Below, piece by piece: positions 2,455-41,967 of a stretch of DNA of 45,060 nt. The notes beneath the pieces are model-generated. The model did not search any database. It was not told the origin of the DNA and saw only the letters and a program-made list of their open reading frames with translations. This DNA is from a virus. Both the position numbers and the translations under genes were made by a program. Within the stretch, counting starts at the first letter, position 1; every line of letters begins with the position of its first letter. The stretch spans positions 1-45,060 of the IMG/VR virus record IMGVR_UViG_3300010885_043982; one strand, written 5' to 3'.

Positions 2455-4080
2455 ATGATAACAGTAGGATATTCAACAAGAAAACATAATACAGAGTTTA
2501 TTGAATACTTGAAAAAAAGTTCAGGTTTTAAAAAGATTGAGGTTATTGAAAAAATTAATAATGGTGAAAAATCTCTTTCAGAGGTTTACAACGAAATACT
2601 ATCCGAGTCAAATACGGATATTGTTGTTTTAATACACGATGACGTATATTTTGATACTAACGCATGGTATTCTAAATTAATCAAACATTTTGAAAAATCT
2701 GATTTTGGTATAATTGGAATGGCGGGAACTACCGATATGCCTGAAAGTGGTATGTGGTGGGAAAATAGAAAAAAAATGGTCGGTATTGTAAACCACGAAC
2801 ATGAAGGAAAAAAATGGGAATCAAAATATTCTGATAGTATTGGTAATAACATTTTTGAGACTGTAATTGTTGATGGTCTTTTCATGGCGATTAACAAAAA
2901 AAGAATTAAGAAAAACTTTAATGAGGAATTTAAAGGGTTTCACTTCTACGACATACCATTTTGTTTTGATAACTATTTGGAAGGTGTTAAAATTGGTGTT
3001 ATTACAAACATCAGAATCACTCACAAATCTATTGGTCAAACTAACGAACAATGGGAAGAGAATAAGAAATTATTTGCCGAAAAATATAAATCAAATTTAC
3101 CAGTTAAATTACCTTTTAATGAACAAAGAAAAATAAAAGTATTACTATCTTGTTTATTTTTTAAAACATTTACAGGGTCAGAACTTTATGTTTATGAGTT
3201 AGCAAAAAATTTAATCAAACAAAATTGTGATGTAACCGTGATGTCTCAAGTTGGTGGACCATTAACTGATATGGCAAAAAAACAAGGAATTAAATGTGTT
3301 TCATTTGAGGAAGCTCCCGGATTTAAAATGGGGGATGGAAAATGGGGTCATACAACAGATAAAGGATTCCAACCTTCTCAACCAAATGTTATGTATAGAA
3401 TTTCAGAAGTTAATTTTGATTTGATTCATATGCAACATAAACCGGTTGCAGAAAGAATGATTCAATTCTATCCTGAAATTGATAAAATATATTCAATCCA
3501 CTCAGAAGTAATTGAATTAGAAAATCCTATAGAACATGAGTCAATTAAAAAATACATTGCGATTAGACCTGAAATTAAAGACTATTTAATAAATTCATTT
3601 GAAATTCCGGAAGAACATATCGAGATTATTTATAATCCAATTGATAATGAAAAATTTAAACCAAAAGATATTAAAGAAGAAAATAGTGTTTTATTTGTTG
3701 GGACCATTGATTACTTAAGAAAAGAAACCATTTTAGATTTAATGGACAGAACAAAAGAAGAAGGTAAAGAATTATGGTTAGTTGGTGAAGATAAAGGAAA
3801 TTATTTACAACAAGTATTATTTGAACCTCATGTTAAATATTTCCCATCAACATGGAATGTTGAGTCTTTTATATCTAAATGTTCCGAAACCGCAGGTATT
3901 CAATTAGGGAGAACAACAATTGAGGGATGGTTGTGTGGAAAACCGGGATGGATATATAATGTTGACTCAGCGGGTTTTATCTTAAATAAAGAAAAATTTG
4001 AAGTACCTACTGATTTAGAAAAATATTACTCATCAAATGTAGCAGAACAAATAAAAAAGGAATACATTAAAATATTATAA
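2455..4080 (+). CDS. Two-domain glycosyltransferase (GT-A fused to GT-B)
   Basis: Residues 1 to about 225 look like a small GT-A domain: the start MITVGYSTRKHN, a VVLIHDDVYF segment with the acidic metal-binding motif, and VDGLFMAINKKRI followed by a FHFYDIPFCFD segment. Residues about 230-541 form a GT-B domain: LLSCLFFKTFTGSELYVYEL at its start, LIHMQHKP, then SVLFVGTIDYLRKE and LGRTTIEGWLCGKPGW at the donor site. Such fusions can add two consecutive sugars, or one half can be only a binding module. The downstream dehydrogenase-like gene follows after a single base. Donor sugars are not predictable. Confidence 0.75.
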   Translation: MITVGYSTRKHNTEFIEYLKKSSGFKKIEVIEKINNGEKSLSEVYNEILSESNTDIVVLIHDDVYFDTNAWYSKLIKHFEKSDFGIIGMAGTTDMPESGMWWENRKKMVGIVNHEHEGKKWESKYSDSIGNNIFETVIVDGLFMAINKKRIKKNFNEEFKGFHFYDIPFCFDNYLEGVKIGVITNIRITHKSIGQTNEQWEENKKLFAEKYKSNLPVKLPFNEQRKIKVLLSCLFFKTFTGSELYVYELAKNLIKQNCDVTVMSQVGGPLTDMAKKQGIKCVSFEEAPGFKMGDGKWGHTTDKGFQPSQPNVMYRISEVNFDLIHMQHKPVAERMIQFYPEIDKIYSIHSEVIELENPIEHESIKKYIAIRPEIKDYLINSFEIPEEHIEIIYNPIDNEKFKPKDIKEENSVLFVGTIDYLRKETILDLMDRTKEEGKELWLVGEDKGNYLQQVLFEPHVKYFPSTWNVESFISKCSETAGIQLGRTTIEGWLCGKPGWIYNVDSAGFILNKEKFEVPTDLEKYYSSNVAEQIKKEYIKIL

Positions 4081-4081
4081 T

Positions 4082-5239
4082 ATGAAAATTGGTGTTATTG
4101 GTGTAAACTCGTTGGGAGTTGCGTTTTCATTACTGTGTGAAAATACCGGACATGAAGTTATTATTTATGACAAGGATGAAGATATTATTTTTAATCTAAA
4201 CCAAGACATTTATAACACAACAGAACCTCTAATTCAAAAAATGTTATTTGAATCATATAATTTTTCCGGAACCACGAATGTTGTTGAATTAATTAAAGAA
4301 TGCGACACTATTTTCACATTTGTTGATACAATACCAACGATTGATGGTGGTAATGACACTACAAAAGTTTTTGAAGTTTCTAATCATTTTTTCACCGTAT
4401 CTCAATTAGATATACCGATTTATAATAAAAAATTCATAATCGGGTCTACAATGAATCCGGGTGAGACAGAACAGATTCAAGAAAAATTACATATGTTTAA
4501 TATACAAGTCGGATATTGTCCAACAATGTCGTCAGAGGGTAATATTATTAATGGATATATTAATTCAGATATTGTATTAATTGGGACCGAACATCAAGAA
4601 CTTTCCAATCAATTAATTTATCTTTTTTCTAAAATTCAACCTAATGGTGTTAATATACACACAATGTCTTTAAAAGCTGCTGAAATTGCGAAGTTATCAA
4701 TAAATTCATTTATTTCAATGAAGATAAGTTTTGTAAATACATTAGGTGATTTACTGGTTAAATCTGATTTAAAAGAAGAAACCAACGCGATATTACATTC
4801 AATTAGTTGTGATTCAAGAGTAGGTTCAAAATCTTTTAAATATGGATTTGGATACGGGGGACTTAATCTACCAAGAGATATGAAAACTTTATCAGAATAT
4901 TACAAAAAATATGATATTGATACAACATTAATCACCTCTGTTAAAGATGGTAATGAAAATCATTCAAAATTCTTAAAAGAATACTATATATCTCAAAACC
5001 CATATAAAGAAATACCTTTCGTTATTGAATACATAGGATTCAAACGAGGAGTTAATAATTTAATAAATTCACAACAATGGAGTCTTTGTCTTGAATTACT
5101 TAAGGAAGGGTATTATATTAATGTGATTGATGACAATCAACTTGGGGGTCAATTTCAAGATTTATGTTTGTTTTACAATAATCGACTTAAATTTTATAAA
5201 TCGGGTACAACACCTGATGGATACAAAATCAAATTATAA
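4082..5239 (+). CDS. UDP-glucose/GDP-mannose dehydrogenase-like protein, catalytic Cys missing
   Basis: The protein has the layout of the NAD-dependent nucleotide-sugar 6-dehydrogenases: N-terminal Rossmann segment MKIGVIGVNSLG, a STMNPGETEQ segment, the central helix AAEIAKLSINSFISMKISF with the conserved Lys204 and Asn208, and the GFGYGG loop. In active family members that loop continues with the catalytic cysteine (GGxCxPKD); here it reads GGLNLPRD, so residue 262 is Asn. The usual Glu in the PEFxxEG segment is also changed (PTMSSEG), and the GxGxxG of the Rossmann fold reads GVNSLG. It is therefore unlikely to do the two-step oxidation to a uronic acid. It may be a binding scaffold, regulator or altered dehydrogenase. 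It overlaps the next start by one base. Confidence 0.8.
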   Translation: MKIGVIGVNSLGVAFSLLCENTGHEVIIYDKDEDIIFNLNQDIYNTTEPLIQKMLFESYNFSGTTNVVELIKECDTIFTFVDTIPTIDGGNDTTKVFEVSNHFFTVSQLDIPIYNKKFIIGSTMNPGETEQIQEKLHMFNIQVGYCPTMSSEGNIINGYINSDIVLIGTEHQELSNQLIYLFSKIQPNGVNIHTMSLKAAEIAKLSINSFISMKISFVNTLGDLLVKSDLKEETNAILHSISCDSRVGSKSFKYGFGYGGLNLPRDMKTLSEYYKKYDIDTTLITSVKDGNENHSKFLKEYYISQNPYKEIPFVIEYIGFKRGVNNLINSQQWSLCLELLKEGYYINVIDDNQLGGQFQDLCLFYNNRLKFYKSGTTPDGYKIKL

Positions 5240-5904
5240 TGAAACTATTAATTAAATTTCCAACAAGAAATCGTAAAAATAAATTTTTTACAGTATTAAA
5301 AAAATATCAATCATTATGTGAGGATATTGAAAATACTTTTTTTTTAATAACCTTAGATACTGATGATAAAGAAATGAACTCCCCTGAGGTTGCAGATATT
5401 TTTAGCTCATTTAAAAATATAAAATATGTTTATGGAGATAGTCCTTCTAAAATTCACGCAATAAATAGAGATATCGAAACCATTGATGAATGGGATATTG
5501 TTTTATTGGCGTCTGACGATATGACACCAAAAGTTAAAGGGTACGATAATATTATCCGTGATAAAATGAAAGAACATTATCCTGATACGGATGGTATTTT
5601 ATGGTTTAATGACGGTCACCAAGCAAATCGTCTCAACACTTTATGTATCTTAGGTAAAAAATATTATGAAAGATTCAATTACATTTATTATCCTGAATAT
5701 AAGTCAGTTTGGTCCGATAATGAATTTATGTCAGTCGGTAATATTTTAGAAAAACAAACTTATTTTGATGAAGTTATTATTGAACATGAACATCCTGATT
5801 GGGGTTATGGAAACAGAGATATTATTCATAGAGTAAATTCAGAAAATGAAAGTCATGATATGAACTTATTTTTAAATAGACAGTCTAATAGATTTTATTT
5901 ATGA
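5239..5904 (+). CDS. GT-A fold glycosyltransferase-like protein
   Basis: A 221-residue protein starting MKLLIKFPTRNR, the usual first strand of GT2-like proteins, with an acidic metal-site candidate LLASDDMTP near residue 95 and an EHEHPDWGYGNRD segment near the C-terminus where catalytic bases often lie. These features suggest a small cytoplasmic GT-A transferase. There is no membrane segment. It is embedded in a chain of sugar-transfer genes with 1-4 base overlaps on both sides, which supports co-expression. Donor and acceptor are unknown. Confidence 0.6.
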   Translation: MKLLIKFPTRNRKNKFFTVLKKYQSLCEDIENTFFLITLDTDDKEMNSPEVADIFSSFKNIKYVYGDSPSKIHAINRDIETIDEWDIVLLASDDMTPKVKGYDNIIRDKMKEHYPDTDGILWFNDGHQANRLNTLCILGKKYYERFNYIYYPEYKSVWSDNEFMSVGNILEKQTYFDEVIIEHEHPDWGYGNRDIIHRVNSENESHDMNLFLNRQSNRFYL

Positions 5905-6560: not shown

Positions 6561-7223
6561 ATGACATTAACTATTTTGATATGTGTACACAGTACCAATG
6601 ACTTTAATGACGATTTATTAAATAAATCAATACAATCATTAGTTAATCAAACATATAAAGATTTTAAGACTTTAATTGTTTTAGACGAATGTTGGAGTAA
6701 AACCATGGAGATGATTACTTCTTCAAATTATGAATTAGATTTGACCATATTAACTCGAGATAAAAAACAAGGTTTGTCTTATGCCAAAAATTATGGATTA
6801 TACCATATCAACACAGAGTGGGTTGGATTCTTAGACGCAGATGATTTATACCTACCCACTAAACTTGAAGAACAAGTTAATTATATTGTTAATAACAAAG
6901 TTGATTTTTTAGGAACTAAATCTTGGTATATTGATGGTTTAAATGAGAAAAATTTATATCCTAGTTGGTATTTGACTAATGAGGACACACCATTATGTGA
7001 AACTCATGAAGATATTAAAAGTAAAATATTTGATTCAAATGTTTTAACTCACGGTTCAATGTTAGTTAGAAAAGAATGCGTCAATAAACTAAATGGATAT
7101 GAAGATGTCAGGGGAATGGAAGATTGGGACTTATGGAAAAGAGGAATTTCAAATAATTTTATATTTCATCAATTACAAAATAAACTTTACATCTACCGAA
7201 AAGGAACTAGTGTACCCTTATAA
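6561..7223 (+). CDS. GT2-family glycosyltransferase
   Basis: Typical GT2 features over 220 residues: the N-terminal strand LTILICVHSTNDF, the SIQSLVNQTYKDF helix that follows the nucleotide-binding loop, a FLDADDLYLP metal-binding DxD-type motif near residue 91, and MEDWDLWKR near residue 190, the usual acceptor/catalytic ED-W motif. It should transfer one sugar from a nucleotide donor with inversion, in the cytoplasm. Spacing to the neighbouring genes is 6 and 12 nt. Specificity unknown. Confidence 0.82.
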   Translation: MTLTILICVHSTNDFNDDLLNKSIQSLVNQTYKDFKTLIVLDECWSKTMEMITSSNYELDLTILTRDKKQGLSYAKNYGLYHINTEWVGFLDADDLYLPTKLEEQVNYIVNNKVDFLGTKSWYIDGLNEKNLYPSWYLTNEDTPLCETHEDIKSKIFDSNVLTHGSMLVRKECVNKLNGYEDVRGMEDWDLWKRGISNNFIFHQLQNKLYIYRKGTSVPL

Positions 7224-7918: not shown

Positions 7919-8701
7919 ATGGAAAGTTACGTTTCAAGTCATTTACAAGGGGGATTAGGTAATTACTTATTTCAAATTTCCGCCGCTTATGCAATCTCAA
8001 TAAGAGACAATAAGAAATTAAAAATTGACATCTCAGATATCGCAATTATTCATAGCCCTTTAGAATTATACTCTGATAACATTTTTAGGAATATTACATT
8101 TGGTGAGATTGTAAATTTTGAATCAATTCACTCATCAGCACATTCTCCTATTAGTTATCTCAATATACCAATTGTTAACGGTAATTTAAAATTGGATGGG
8201 TATTACCAAAATGAAAAATATTTTAAACAATATCAAAATGAAATACTTAATTTATTTAAAATTGATGAGTCGACTAAAAATTATTTAACTGAAAAATATT
8301 CGGATATACCATTTGACAATACCTGTTCAATACATGTTAGAAGAGGTAATTATGTTGAACGTCAAGATTTTCACCCATTACAAAGTATTGATTATTATAA
8401 ACAAGCAATATCTATTATTGGGGAAAATACCTTATTTTTAATTTTCTCAGATGACATTGAATGGTGTGAGTCTAATTTAAGTTTTATTAAAAATAAAATT
8501 TTTATTAGTGGAAATTTGGATTATCAAGACCTATATTTAATGTCGATGTGTAACCATAACATTATTGCCAATTCAAGTTTTAGTTGGTGGGGTGCTTGGT
8601 TAAATAACAATAATGATAAAAAAATAATATACCCATCGTTTTGGTTTAATAATGGACCGGATAGTAGCGAAATAGGAGGGGAAAATTGGATTAAAATTTA
8701 A
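7919..8701 (+). CDS. Alpha-1,2-fucosyltransferase family protein (GT11)
   Basis: The family signatures are clear: N-terminal QGGLGNYLFQISAAYAIS (residues 10-27), the GDP-binding motif HVRRGNYV (139-146), FLIFSDDIEWCE in the Rossmann half, and NSSFSWWGAWLN (218-229). GT11 enzymes transfer L-fucose, or closely related 6-deoxy sugars such as colitose, from the GDP-sugar to O-2 of galactose. The gene is followed directly by the GDP-fucose-synthase-type gene and, two genes on, by a GT6 enzyme that classically uses the Fuc-alpha1,2-Gal product as acceptor. Length (260 aa) is within the bacterial range. Acceptor and exact donor need testing. Confidence 0.9.
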   Translation: MESYVSSHLQGGLGNYLFQISAAYAISIRDNKKLKIDISDIAIIHSPLELYSDNIFRNITFGEIVNFESIHSSAHSPISYLNIPIVNGNLKLDGYYQNEKYFKQYQNEILNLFKIDESTKNYLTEKYSDIPFDNTCSIHVRRGNYVERQDFHPLQSIDYYKQAISIIGENTLFLIFSDDIEWCESNLSFIKNKIFISGNLDYQDLYLMSMCNHNIIANSSFSWWGAWLNNNNDKKIIYPSFWFNNGPDSSEIGGENWIKI

Positions 8702-8707
8702 AAAATT

Positions 8708-9634
8708 ATGAGAAAATATTTAATAACCGGGTCCAATGGGTTGGTTGGTTCATCTTTAAAAAAGATATTAGGAGATAACCATGTGTACCACACAAAAGAT
8801 GAGGTTGATTTAACAGATTCTAAAAAAACTTTAGATTATATAACTTACCATGTTAAGAATAATGGTGTTGATTCAATAATTAATTGTTCTGCAAAAGTTG
8901 GGGGTGTACAGGCTAATATGAAAAATAACAAAGGTTTTTTTATTGAAAACTTTATGATAAATAATAATGTGATAGAATCTTCATTTAAAAATGAAATTCC
9001 AAATTTTGTTAATCTACTATCTACTTGTATTTTCCCCGATAAAAATATAACATTCCCATTAACCCCAAATCAAATTGATAACGGGGAACCTCATTTTTCA
9101 AATCACGGATATGCATACGCAAAAAGAATTGCGGGTTACCAAACAAATGTAATTAAAAAAGTTTTAAATGCTAATTGGATATCAGTGATACCGACAAATG
9201 TTTACGGAATCAATGATAATTTTCACTTAGAAGAAGGACATATGATTCCGGGAATGATACATAGGGCATATCTATCAAAACAAAATTCAGAAAAAATGGT
9301 TGTTTGGGGGGATGGAAGTCCATTAAGACAAGTTATTCATTCCGATGATTTAGCAAAATTAATACTATGGTCATTAGATAATTGGAATAGTGATGAATCA
9401 TTCATGGCAATAAACCCTAACGAACATTCAATTTTAGAGATAGCAAATATTATTTGTAATACATTGGGAATATCAAATGATGACATTATTTTTGATTCAG
9501 AAAAACCTATGGGACAATATCGAAAACCCGCAATTTCAAACGCACCTGAAGATTTTAAATTTATCTCATTGGAAGATGGGATTAAAGAAACCATAAATTG
9601 GTTTAAAATAAACTATAATAATATAAGAAAATGA
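8708..9634 (+). CDS. fcl: GDP-L-fucose synthase / GDP-colitose synthase-type epimerase-reductase
   Basis: A short-chain dehydrogenase of the GDP-4-keto-6-deoxymannose 3,5-epimerase/4-reductase family. The NADP loop LITGSNGLVGSS opens the protein, VGGVQANMKNNKG follows, and active-site residues are in place: STC (Ser105, Cys107), Y135-x3-K139, and His178 in the GHMIPGMIHRA segment. With the dehydratase at 12110 it gives GDP-L-fucose. The homologous ColC reaction (GDP-colitose) is an equally reasonable role because a ColD-like gene is also present. The start of the next gene overlaps its stop by 4 nt. Confidence 0.88.
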   Translation: MRKYLITGSNGLVGSSLKKILGDNHVYHTKDEVDLTDSKKTLDYITYHVKNNGVDSIINCSAKVGGVQANMKNNKGFFIENFMINNNVIESSFKNEIPNFVNLLSTCIFPDKNITFPLTPNQIDNGEPHFSNHGYAYAKRIAGYQTNVIKKVLNANWISVIPTNVYGINDNFHLEEGHMIPGMIHRAYLSKQNSEKMVVWGDGSPLRQVIHSDDLAKLILWSLDNWNSDESFMAINPNEHSILEIANIICNTLGISNDDIIFDSEKPMGQYRKPAISNAPEDFKFISLEDGIKETINWFKINYNNIRK

Positions 9635-10955: not shown

Positions 10956-12113
10956 ATGACAGAAAAAATAACATTAGTAAAAGACACCATTGACATTAAT
11001 GATGTTAATAAGTTAATTGATTGGTTGAAAACTAACCCTAGATTAACCAAAGGAGATTTGACAATTGAATTTGAAAAAAAATGGTCTGAATGGTTAGGGA
11101 CTAAATATTCTGTGTTTGTTAACTCCGGGTCTTCAGCTAATTTAGCGGCAATTTATTCTTTAATACTTTCAGGTAAATTAAAGAATAATAAAATAGTAGT
11201 TCCTGCGGTATCATGGGTTACCACTGTTACACCAGCAATTCAATTAGGTTTAGAACCAATTATGTGTGAATGTGACATGAATAACTTAGGATTGGATATT
11301 AATCATTTAAAAGAGATTATTAAAACCGAAAATCCCGGTACCATTATATTAGTTCATGTATTGGGATTCCCAAATTACATGAATGAAATTATTGAGTTAT
11401 GTGAAGAAAATAACATCCTGTTAATTGAAGACACTTGTGAATCAATTGGTTCAGAATATGAGGGGAAAAAATTAGGAACTTTGGGTGATTTATCAACATT
11501 TTCATTTTATTTTGGTCACCACATGTCAACAATTGAAGGTGGAATGGTTTCAACTAATGATGAGGAGTTATACCATATTTTATTATCAATACGCTCACAT
11601 GGATGGGATAGAGATTTACCAAAAGAAAAACAAGAATTTCTTAGAGAAAAATATAATGTGGATTCATTTAGGTCATTATACACTTTTTATTATCCTGGGT
11701 TTAATTTAAGAGCAACCGACCTACAGGCATTTATAGGGTTAAACCAATTAGAGAAATTAACTACTATAGTTGAAAATCGATATAAAAATTATATGAGATA
11801 TAAAAATGAAATTAAAAATGATTTTTGGAATATCTCTCCTCCAGAGAACTCTTACATATCAAATTTTTCATTTCCTATAATAACTAAAAACATTAAATCT
11901 TTGACCGAAGCGTTAATTGAGAATAATATTGAATGTCGACCTTTAATTTGTGGGTCAATAAATGAACATCCTTTTTGGTACGAAAGATATGGTAAACAAG
12001 AATTACCAAATTCAAAATTGGTACATGAATTTGGTATATACATACCAAATAATCATCAAATGACCGATGATGAAATAACCAAAGTAATTAAAATTGTTAA
12101 TAATAATATATGA
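10956..12113 (+). CDS. ColD-like PLP-dependent GDP-4-keto-6-deoxymannose 3-dehydratase (DegT/DnrJ family)
   Basis: A 385-residue fold-type I PLP enzyme of the sugar aminotransferase family: VNSGSSANLAA binds the cofactor phosphate, LIEDTCESIGSEYEGKKLG carries the PLP-stacking and pyridine-nitrogen residues. At the position of the internal-aldimine lysine it reads FYFGHHMSTIEGG, so His188 replaces Lys. That Lys-to-His change is the hallmark of 3-dehydratases (ColD, and the E1 enzyme RfbH), which remove the C3 hydroxyl instead of only transaminating. With GDP-mannose dehydratase immediately downstream (4-nt overlap) the ColD role, making a GDP-3,6-dideoxy-4-keto sugar, is preferred over RfbH; no iron-sulphur cysteine cluster is evident. 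Confidence 0.8.
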   Translation: MTEKITLVKDTIDINDVNKLIDWLKTNPRLTKGDLTIEFEKKWSEWLGTKYSVFVNSGSSANLAAIYSLILSGKLKNNKIVVPAVSWVTTVTPAIQLGLEPIMCECDMNNLGLDINHLKEIIKTENPGTIILVHVLGFPNYMNEIIELCEENNILLIEDTCESIGSEYEGKKLGTLGDLSTFSFYFGHHMSTIEGGMVSTNDEELYHILLSIRSHGWDRDLPKEKQEFLREKYNVDSFRSLYTFYYPGFNLRATDLQAFIGLNQLEKLTTIVENRYKNYMRYKNEIKNDFWNISPPENSYISNFSFPIITKNIKSLTEALIENNIECRPLICGSINEHPFWYERYGKQELPNSKLVHEFGIYIPNNHQMTDDEITKVIKIVNNNI

Positions 12114-13084
12114 AAATAGCATTAATTACCGGAATAAATGGTCAAGATGGTTCATATCTTGCCGAATTTTTATTAGAAAAAGGATATGAAGTCCATGGAA
12201 CATTAAAACGAAATTCTGTCGCGGAAAATCAAACATCAAGATTAGTTGACATATATACTCAAGTTAAATTACATTACGCTGATTTGACCGACTTATCTTC
12301 ATTAAATAAAGTAATTAAAGAAGTTAATCCTGATGAAATATATAATCTTGCTGCTCAATCACATGTTAGAATATCTTTTGACCAACCATTGTACACTGCA
12401 AATGTTACGGGTATTGGTACTTTAAATGTTTTAGAGTCAGTTAAATTAATCAATCCTAAGATTAAAATATATCAAGCATCATCTTCCGAAATGTTTGGAA
12501 ACTCGATTGACTCGGATGGATATCAAAGAGAAACTACTCCAATGAATCCGGTTTCACCATACGGATGTGCCAAAGTTTTTAGTTATAACATTTGTCGTAA
12601 TTATAGAAATTCATATGGAATGTTTATTTCAAATGGGATATTATTCAACCATGAATCACCAAGAAGAGGAACTAACTTTGTAACTAATAAAGTTTGTAAA
12701 GAAGCCGTTAAAATTAAACTTGGTTTATCTAATGAGTTAAAGTTAGGTAATTTAGAGGCAACTAGAGATTGGGGTCATGCTAAAGATTATGTTAAAGTTA
12801 TGTGGGAAATATTACAGTTAGACAAACCTGATGATTTTGTATGTTCAACAGGTGTTTCACATACTGTCCAAGACCTATGTGAATATGTTTTTGGAAAATT
12901 AGAGTTAGATTGGGAACTGTATGTTCAACAAGATGAGAAGTTTTTAAGACCAGAAGAATTACACAATCTAAAAGGTGATTCCTCAAAATTAATTGAGGCA
13001 ACTGGTTGGTCCCACGATTACACTTTTGAAACAATGTTAGATGAAATGATTGAACATTGGTTAAACTTTTATAAAAAAAATTAA
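12110..13084 (+). CDS. gmd: GDP-mannose 4,6-dehydratase
   Basis: The protein starts with the family NADP loop ALITGINGQDGSYLAEFL and has GTLKRNS, NLAAQSHVRISFDQP, the active-site ASSSEMFG (residues 123-130) and SPYGCAK with Tyr151 and Lys155, then NHESPRRGTNFVT. Length (324 aa) is slightly under the usual 345-375. It converts GDP-D-mannose to GDP-4-keto-6-deoxy-D-mannose in the cytoplasm, the common precursor for GDP-fucose and GDP-colitose. Both candidate next-step enzymes are in the same cluster. No gene making GDP-mannose itself is in the window, so the substrate would come from the host or from genes to the left. Confidence 0.95.
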   Translation: MKIALITGINGQDGSYLAEFLLEKGYEVHGTLKRNSVAENQTSRLVDIYTQVKLHYADLTDLSSLNKVIKEVNPDEIYNLAAQSHVRISFDQPLYTANVTGIGTLNVLESVKLINPKIKIYQASSSEMFGNSIDSDGYQRETTPMNPVSPYGCAKVFSYNICRNYRNSYGMFISNGILFNHESPRRGTNFVTNKVCKEAVKIKLGLSNELKLGNLEATRDWGHAKDYVKVMWEILQLDKPDDFVCSTGVSHTVQDLCEYVFGKLELDWELYVQQDEKFLRPEELHNLKGDSSKLIEATGWSHDYTFETMLDEMIEHWLNFYKKN

Positions 13085-27042: not shown

Positions 27043-27723
27043 TTATATAATATTATTTGACTTACGGATATTCTCTTCCCCCCACATTGGTTGGAGATTA
27101 TTTAACGACCAACATCTCATAAACTCATCATCTCCCATCTCTTGAATATTAAAAGAAGTGATTGGTAGTTTATGGTCAACGTGCCAAATTCCATAATTAT
27201 CCCAAGTCATTGTGTCCGTAAATTGTTTTTCTAAATGATTAATTAATTCTTCCGGTGTATATTGTAGGATGTCAAAGTAGGATTTATTCTTTTCTACATT
27301 ATTCTCCTTTAATACTTGATATATTGCCGTTCTGAAATTGGAGATTAGTTTATAGAGGGGGTCTCTCGATTTACGATTCCTTTCGTAGTCGCGTTTTATT
27401 TGACGAATTTTATCAACATTATTTTCTCGGTATTCTTTAAGATATTTTTTACGATATTCTTTATTTTGTTCATACCAAGTTTTAACATATTCTCTAACAC
27501 TATCTTTATTTTTTTCTCTCCATCGTTTATCGGCGACTTGTTTACCACCAATATTTCTTCTTCCGGACGAACTCATTATAACACCATTTTCTTTTAATAT
27601 CCTTAATATTGTTGGTTTACTAATACCTGTTTTTTCAGAAATAGTATGTGAACCTAACAACTCATCATTATACATTTTAAGTATGTTATCTAATTCTTCT
27701 TTATTTAATTCTATCTTTTTCAT
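27043..27723 (-). CDS. HNH endonuclease with N-terminal helix-turn-helix (probable homing endonuclease)
   Basis: The ATG at 27723 is preferred over an in-frame codon 27 nt upstream because TATTTATA lies 3 nt before it. The 226-residue product has an N-terminal HTH (GSHTISEKTGISKPTILRIL), a long basic Lys/Arg linker (about 70-125), then the HNH core: WHVDHKLPITSF and CWSLNNLQPMWGEEN with the His-Asp-His and Asn-Asn residues. Free-standing HNH proteins of this kind cut phage DNA at a specific site and spread by repair. It lies directly next to the major capsid gene, a favourite site for such elements. Its own terminator-proximal promoter isolates it from the capsid transcript. Confidence 0.85.
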   Translation of the reverse strand: MKKIELNKEELDNILKMYNDELLGSHTISEKTGISKPTILRILKENGVIMSSSGRRNIGGKQVADKRWREKNKDSVREYVKTWYEQNKEYRKKYLKEYRENNVDKIRQIKRDYERNRKSRDPLYKLISNFRTAIYQVLKENNVEKNKSYFDILQYTPEELINHLEKQFTDTMTWDNYGIWHVDHKLPITSFNIQEMGDDEFMRCWSLNNLQPMWGEENIRKSNNII

Positions 27724-27726
27724 ATT

Positions 27727-27734
27727 TATAAATA
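27727..27734 (-). promoter_or_regulatory. Candidate late promoter element before HNH gene
   Basis: Exact TATTTATA in minus-strand sense, 3 nt before the ATG at 27723. It decides the start choice for this gene. Confidence 0.45.
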
Positions 27735-27767
27735 TAACATATTTTACCAAAAAACATATAGTTAATA

Positions 27768-41151: not shown

Positions 41152-41967
41152 TTAATTATTTAATCCGTTAAACCCACCTAACGTAATTGCGTTTAATTGT
41201 GCATATGGAACACCATAGGCATCAGTAAAAATAGGGTGAGGAGCAATTGCACCTACCGGAGCTGTTCCCCCACTGAAATCCCCAAGTATTCCAATAGTAT
41301 AAGCATATTGATTATTAACACTATAACCTGATAACGGCCAAGGACTTGGTGACGGAGTTGGGGTATTGGTCGGTGTTGGTGTATTTGTTGGGGTTCGTGT
41401 TGGAGTACCTGTTTGTGTCGGCGTATTTGTTGGTGTTTGGGTTGGTGTTTTTGTTTGAGTTGGAGTTGGTGTTGGTGTACCAGTTTTAGTTGGAGTTGGA
41501 GTTGGTGTACCAGTTTTAGTTGGAGTTTGTGTTGGGGTACCTGTTTGAGTATTTGTTGGAGTGTTTGTAGGTGTTCCTGTATTTGTTTGAGTTGGAGTTG
41601 GTGTTGGTGTACCAGTTTTAGTTGGAGTTGGAGTTGGTGTACCAGTTTTAGTTGGAGTTTGAGTCGGCGTACCTGTTTGAGTCGGCGTATTTGTTGGTGT
41701 TTGAGTTTGAGTTGGTGTTGGAGTCGGTGTTGGATTTGCTGTGAAACAAGTTGTACAATCACCATAATCTATCGATAATGTTGCAACATAATCTGAACCT
41801 GTACTAGGTTCTGCGGTGTCAACGATTTCATAACATCCTTGTGCCGTAGCACCAGTAAATGTTAAATAATAATTTCCCCCAACTGTAGGAAGAGAAGCAC
41901 TGTTAAATTCAACAGTTACTGCCGAACCTCCTGCGCAAGGTGCTATAAGATATGTTACAAATGCCAT
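41152..41967 (-). CDS. Thr/Pro-repeat virion-like protein
   Basis: The 271-residue protein has a small N-terminal domain ([40 protein letters not shown]) with four Cys residues, a long Thr/Pro repeat (about 78-210, [37 protein letters not shown]), and a C-terminal domain ([20 protein letters not shown]). No signal peptide or anchor is visible. Extended Thr/Pro repeats act as stiff linkers or stalks and are typical O-glycosylation substrates, which may matter beside a large sugar cluster. It is probably a head decoration, tail or fibre-associated protein. It has an exact TATTTATA element before it. Confidence 0.65.
41345..41735. repeat. Thr/Pro codon repeat region
   Basis: About 390 bp of nested repeats, seen on the plus strand as GTTGGTGTACCAGTTTTAGT-type units, encoding [10 protein letters not shown]-type units in the minus-strand gene at 41152. 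The units are imperfect and of mixed length. Confidence 0.85.

Follow-up and report, generated by a model that had tools for sequence, protein, structure and literature searches.

What can a nucleotide-sugar dehydrogenase homologue do once it has lost its catalytic cysteine? The question is raised by an open reading frame at positions 4082-5239 (plus strand) of the window, the whole 45,060-nucleotide stretch analysed here (IMG/VR record IMGVR_UViG_3300010885_043982). The frame is intact, starts with ATG and encodes 385 amino acids. The original prediction described a Cys-less dehydrogenase in an intact gene of a packed operon, and its frame, coordinates and residues agree with our translation (GFGYGG from residue 255, GLNLPRD from 260, PTMSSEG from 147). 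The packing is also as described: the upstream gene stops at 4080, the dehydrogenase starts with its ATG at 4082, and 5239 is where the following gene has its ATG.

The family of the protein was assigned by profile and by structure. The NAD-binding N domain (PF03721) scored 71.5 bits against a cut-off of 27, the central domain (PF00984) scored 63.7 against 25.4, and phrog_9148, annotated as UDP-glucose dehydrogenase, matched with 226 bits. On these profiles, membership in the nucleotide-sugar dehydrogenase family is secure. The curated subfamily TIGR03026 gave 164.5 bits, below its cut-off of 189.8, which a Cys-bearing sister protein passed with 197.5 bits. Pfam finds no C-terminal UDP-binding domain (PF03720), and the AlphaFold2 model (pLDDT 88.8, pTM 0.87) has a reduced alpha/beta C-terminal domain. 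Full-length Foldseek matches were UGDH structures (BceC, P. gingivalis and human UGDH; TM 0.84), so the protein has probably kept the family's oligomer and domain arrangement. The pLDDT fell below 50 at residues 259-262, the catalytic turn. The model of a Cys sister had no segment below 50, and two blocks around its turn were also weaker (76 and 81).

In this family, the catalytic Cys forms the thiohemiacetal and the thioester, and Glu141 (S. pyogenes numbering) acts in thioester hydrolysis. The human Glu161Gln structure, altered at the equivalent residue, traps the thiohemiacetal. Asp264 initiates the first oxidation, and 18 residues are reported as invariant among 229 NDP-sugar dehydrogenases (Freas et al., PMC4794789). 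The window protein keeps 15 of the 18 and lacks exactly Gly9, Glu141 and Cys260. We counted alignment columns in 7 distinct full-length proteins with Asn at the nucleophile position (the Asn clade), 57 Cys-bearing phage proteins and 30 Cys-bearing Bacteroidota proteins. First, the nucleophile is replaced by Asn262 (codon AAT, 4865-4867) in 7/7 clade proteins, within the rewritten catalytic loop GFGYGGLNLPRD (4844-4879, plus strand), where Pro261-Cys262 has become [IL]-Asn and Asp266 is kept. No replacement Cys was found at this loop; Cys146 is fixed in the Asn clade at a position held otherwise by Asn. Second, in the Rossmann loop GxGxxG the second Gly is replaced by Asn9 (4106-4108, plus strand) in all 7 clade proteins, which read GVNSLG or GANTLG, and is kept in all 57 Cys-bearing phage relatives. 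Third, the sugar-contact loop at residues 147-153 (PTMSSEG; 4520-4540, plus strand) is changed throughout, from PEFIAQG in the relatives to P[ST]MSSEG in the clade, so that positions 148-152 go from EFIAQ to [ST]MSSE. The hydrolysing Glu (Glu141 in S. pyogenes, Glu161 in human) is Thr148 in the window protein and Thr or Ser in the clade. In one clade member (L008), Val stands at residue 153, directly after the rewritten positions 148-152, a position at which Gly is invariant elsewhere in the phage family.

The loss of the nucleophile and of the Rossmann Gly was correctly called by the original prediction, as was the retention of Lys204 and Asn208. Its reading of the PTMSSEG loop was right for the first Glu only: the second Glu of the loop is present as Glu152, where Gln stands in 57/57 Cys-bearing phage relatives, and by this comparison it is a gain rather than a loss. 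Further cofactor-side positions are affected. Positions 9, 10, 35 and 84, each invariant in 57/57 Cys-bearing phage members, are altered in most or all of the Asn clade, and positions 35 and 84 now vary within it. The substrate and oxyanion residues Lys204 to Asn208 (4691-4705, plus strand) are kept, and Thr83, Thr123, Glu201, Lys204, Asn208, Asn219, Arg246, Gly259, Gly260, Pro264, Arg265, Asp266 (the equivalent of Asp264), Asn291 and Lys321 show no variation within the clade nor, with the exception of one gap at Thr83, in any of the groups.

A search of viral contigs with the window protein returned 12 loci at 74-81% identity. A degenerate DNA scan for the Asn loop in 2.9 million viral contigs matched only within the Asn clade and added one more (L189). 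Asn is present in each of the 12 other contigs that reach the site (L002-L011, L013 and L189), and L012 stops short of it; the asparagine is thus conserved in every relative that can be scored. Since the change from Cys (TGY) to Asn (AAY) takes two base changes and recurs in 12 other contigs, a sequencing error or assembly artefact is ruled out. A profile search extended the set to 80 loci, including a Cys-bearing sister clade at 50-57% identity. This clade and the cyanophage relatives have GFGFGGPC[LF]PRD-type loops, PEFIAQG and Gly in the NAD loop, and more distant Cys relatives are encoded in Bacteroidota genomes. One 37% match among the Bacteroidota search results (L102) lies on a short contig with NadE that may be viral. 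In a tree of 96 proteins, the Asn proteins formed one clade (SH-aLRT 100) on a long stem (0.65 changes per column), nested inside Cys-bearing phage proteins, and the Cys/Asn character switched once. This topology shows that the Asn dehydrogenase arose once, from a Cys-bearing phage enzyme encoded next to NadE, and on the tree the clade-specific losses of the three residues are likewise one event. Homologues with an ordinary Cys, which had been named as potential counter-evidence, do exist in the sister clade, where they merely represent the condition from which the Asn proteins evolved.

We compared selection on the two groups. The median pN/pS was 0.196 in the Asn clade and 0.191 in the Cys sisters, and the Asn clade is under strong purifying selection. 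Within it the NAD domain is more constrained than the central domain (0.147 and 0.236), whereas the order is reversed in the Cys sisters (0.200 and 0.121). Sister-invariant positions replaced in the Asn clade are concentrated in the pocket (16 of 69, with 8 expected; P 0.002), and invariance within the clade is higher at pocket positions than in the rest (37/45 vs 247/385; P 0.004); both P-values are indicative, as the pocket list was picked by the analyst from known contacts. Most of the replacement pocket residues are themselves fixed. A pocket that was rewritten and then held argues for use, not abandonment, and the suggestion that the gene is not simply decaying is borne out by the pN/pS of 0.20, the intact frame and the shared substitutions. 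The protein is a pseudoenzyme in the sense of an intact homologue under selection that has lost catalytic residues.

The loss of catalytic residues coincides with the loss of a neighbour. In the Cys-bearing phage members, an NAD synthetase gene (NadE) lies nearly always directly upstream of the dehydrogenase, most often with a 4-base overlap. The order in the sister phages is GTa, exonuclease, dUTPase, GT2-GT4, NadE and dehydrogenase. The window and its nearest relatives have this order too, minus NadE, which would lie at the junction 4080-4082 (plus strand). In whole-record searches, NadE was found in 5/5 Cys sister records and in 0/10 Asn records; the latter include four of 112-309 kb. Four Cys loci (L043, L078, L098 and L100) also have no NadE in their records, which may be fragments. 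Since Asn arose once, the association between Asn and the absence of NadE amounts to one evolutionary event. No second dehydrogenase copy, Cys-bearing or otherwise, was found in the 10 Asn records. We also considered whether the NadE-like protein is a uronamide synthase, which would explain the joint loss. All 71 NadE copies retain the TK.GDGG.D motif as well as a C-terminal His-Lys, both of which bind deamido-NAD. Because these expected motifs are kept in 71/71 copies, the proteins more likely make NAD+ as ordinary NAD synthetases than amidate a uronate. The pairing (L014-L019, L032-L101) is common to marine cyanophages, a pelagiphage and freshwater phages, and no description of it in cyanophages was found in the literature searched. 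It suggests that phages provide for the cofactor that their sugar oxidation consumes, and that both genes of the pair can disappear jointly.

The surrounding genes point to a cassette for the synthesis of a surface or virion glycan. Upstream lies a two-domain glycosyltransferase (PF13712 + PF13439; 2455-4080, plus strand), the same gene that precedes NadE in the sisters. Its second domain is GT4 in the window and GT2 in the L002-type phages, which suggests domain swapping in the glycosyltransferase beside the dehydrogenase. Downstream on the plus strand are an overlapping glycosyltransferase (phrog_14945; 5239-5904), a GT2 glycosyltransferase (6561-7223), a GT11 (fucosyltransferase-type) glycosyltransferase (7919-8701), a GDP-L-fucose synthase-like epimerase/reductase below its equivalog cut-off (8708-9634), a DegT-type sugar aminotransferase (10956-12113) and a GDP-mannose 4,6-dehydratase-like protein (12110-13084; 396 bits, cut-off 415). 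The cassette also holds a family 6 glycosyltransferase of blood-group type (PF03414; 9631-10311). Obligate coupling of the dehydrogenase to the aminotransferase was rejected: the latter was not found in Asn records of 309, 178 and 152 kb and is present in Cys records. The L002-type phage lacks the downstream sugar-nucleotide genes of the window (there is no DegT in the 309 kb record, and PhoH directly follows). As the Asn dehydrogenase is kept there, its role seems independent of those genes.

The window is a T4-like phage record. The nearest relatives of its capsid protein are from an uncultured phage, Flavobacterium phages and a Microcystis phage, and together with the Bacteroidota dehydrogenase relatives they suggest a Bacteroidota host. 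By eye, an HNH endonuclease-like frame beside the major capsid gene (27043-27750) is possibly a homing endonuclease. A frame at 41152-41967 with long Thr-Pro repeats (TPTPTQT...), whose other frames are translatable too, is possibly the stalk of a fibre or surface protein.

Given these results, which activity could survive? Because Cys and the hydrolysis Glu are both gone, uronate formation by the thiohemiacetal/thioester route is not expected of the window protein. Partial chemistry is possible in principle, since a laboratory enzyme with the catalytic Cys changed to Ala, although unable to finish when it starts from UDP-glucose, retains the ability to oxidise the aldehyde intermediate (PMC3184952). 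With the changes on the cofactor side and NadE lost, the balance shifts moderately towards a protein that binds a nucleotide sugar and is largely redox-inactive. Our leading reading, to which we give nearly an even chance, is that of a repurposed dehydrogenase acting as a binding partner of the flanking glycosyltransferases. On the Asn branch, Asn262 took the place of the nucleophile, Thr or Ser148 that of the Glu for thioester hydrolysis, and Asn9 that of the second Gly in the NAD loop; further residues on the cofactor side were lost, and so was NadE. The fold and the sugar-nucleotide contacts (Lys204, Asn208, Arg246, Lys321 and the glycine turn) were kept under strong purifying selection. 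By the established mechanism, such a protein cannot oxidise NDP-sugar to uronate via the thioester, and probably it no longer carries out NAD chemistry either. Instead, it may hold, deliver or gate a sugar nucleotide for the glycosyltransferases whose genes flank its own, in the setting of a phage surface-glycan cassette. We infer this partnership from gene order alone. Among the three roles first proposed, the sequence evidence favours the ligand-binding pseudo-enzyme over the one-step oxidoreductase, which remains a rival; the third was a regulator of the neighbouring transferases.

That rival, the main one and in our judgement a real but lesser possibility, holds that the protein interconverts the C6 alcohol and aldehyde of an NDP-sugar, or oxidises another carbon, with NAD(H). 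The reaction would go no further, for lack of the residues that carry out the second oxidation and hydrolyse the thioester. The lost catalytic residues are indeed those of the second half of the reaction, and Asp266, Lys204, Asn208, Thr83 and Thr123 are kept. The activity of the Cys-to-Ala mutant on the aldehyde, the reversibility of the first oxidation (PMC3184952) and the fixation of most replacement pocket residues are consistent with it, and the aminotransferase in some of these phages could use a carbonyl sugar. Thr83, Thr123 and Arg265, which contact the nicotinamide ribose, are all retained, as are Asp30 at the adenosine ribose and Asp266, the base of the first step; a protein that only binds its ligand would not need so many. 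Because the residues on the nicotinamide side persist, the two-electron oxidoreductase has to be taken seriously, and Asn at the second Gly is no proof that NAD binding is abolished. However, the change of Gly9 to Asn and the loss of Arg10, Tyr35, Pro84 and NAD synthetase point away from NAD. In addition, no constant consumer of the aldehyde was found, the aminotransferase being absent from the three large Asn records.

A full four-electron dehydrogenase that oxidises the hydrated aldehyde without a thiol is improbable. The Cys-to-Ala mutant does oxidise added aldehyde (PMC3184952), and Glu152 and Asp266 could conceivably act as a base, but the mutant fails from the alcohol, and the window protein has further changes, at the hydrolysis Glu and in the NAD loop. 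We consider it likewise improbable that the protein co-assembles with a Cys-bearing dehydrogenase of the host and thereby poisons or modulates it while the cell is infected. Enzymes of this family form dimers or hexamers in which neighbouring subunits share active sites at their interface (PMC3184952), the retained Arg246 corresponds to human Arg260, which reaches the site of the neighbour, and Bacteroidota encode relatives; most bacterial relatives are only 28-33% identical, however, which makes mixed oligomers unlikely. A decaying gene or assembly artefact, which the three losses would resemble if one sequence were viewed alone, is refuted by the intact frame, the same substitutions in 12 other contigs and the pN/pS of 0.20.

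Returning to the repurposed binding partner and its setting, the Asn-clade phages are a group of freshwater phages in which the dehydrogenase was probably put to a new use in a sugar-coating gene set. A broader proposal, less likely than not, is a new kind of protein for glycan assembly. It could be a chaperone that serves glycosyltransferases with nucleotide sugars, or an enzyme without a thiol whose product, an NDP-hexodialdose, is then incorporated into the glycan. The phage lineage would then have converted an enzyme of the UDP-glucose dehydrogenase type and lost its dedicated NAD synthetase.

No description of a Cys-less NDP-sugar dehydrogenase was found in the literature searched, and the clade is a conserved natural group without all three of the reportedly invariant residues (Cys, Glu141 and Gly9). 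The trypanosome AdoMetDC prozyme (PMC6221367) likewise has a conserved fold, dead catalytic residues and a presumed non-catalytic role. The prozyme activates a paralogue, whereas no paralogue was found in the Asn phage records. With the UDP-glucose 6-dehydrogenase family (TIGR03026), the window protein shares the fold, domain order, Lys204, Asn208, Asp266, Arg246, Lys321 and the glycine turn; it differs at the catalytic Cys, the hydrolysis Glu and the second GxGxxG Gly, all of which it lacks. The NadE-adjacent phage dehydrogenases (P-TIM68, S-SSM7, S-SCSM2R, Sf-FS3 and freshwater contigs L032-L101) are direct relatives at 35-57% identity. They also sit in a glycan cassette, and L032-L060 share the upstream GTa, exonuclease, dUTPase and GT, but their Cys, Glu and Gly are in place and NadE is nearly always beside them. 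The Cys-to-Ala and Cys-to-Ser laboratory mutants of UGDH are altered at the same site and show the chemistry that survives without the thiol (PMC3184952). Those are single engineered changes, whereas natural evolution of the Asn clade remodelled the entire pocket along with the operon. Compared with Cys-bearing relatives of the same gene order, the clade is a natural experiment on converting a four-electron dehydrogenase to something else.
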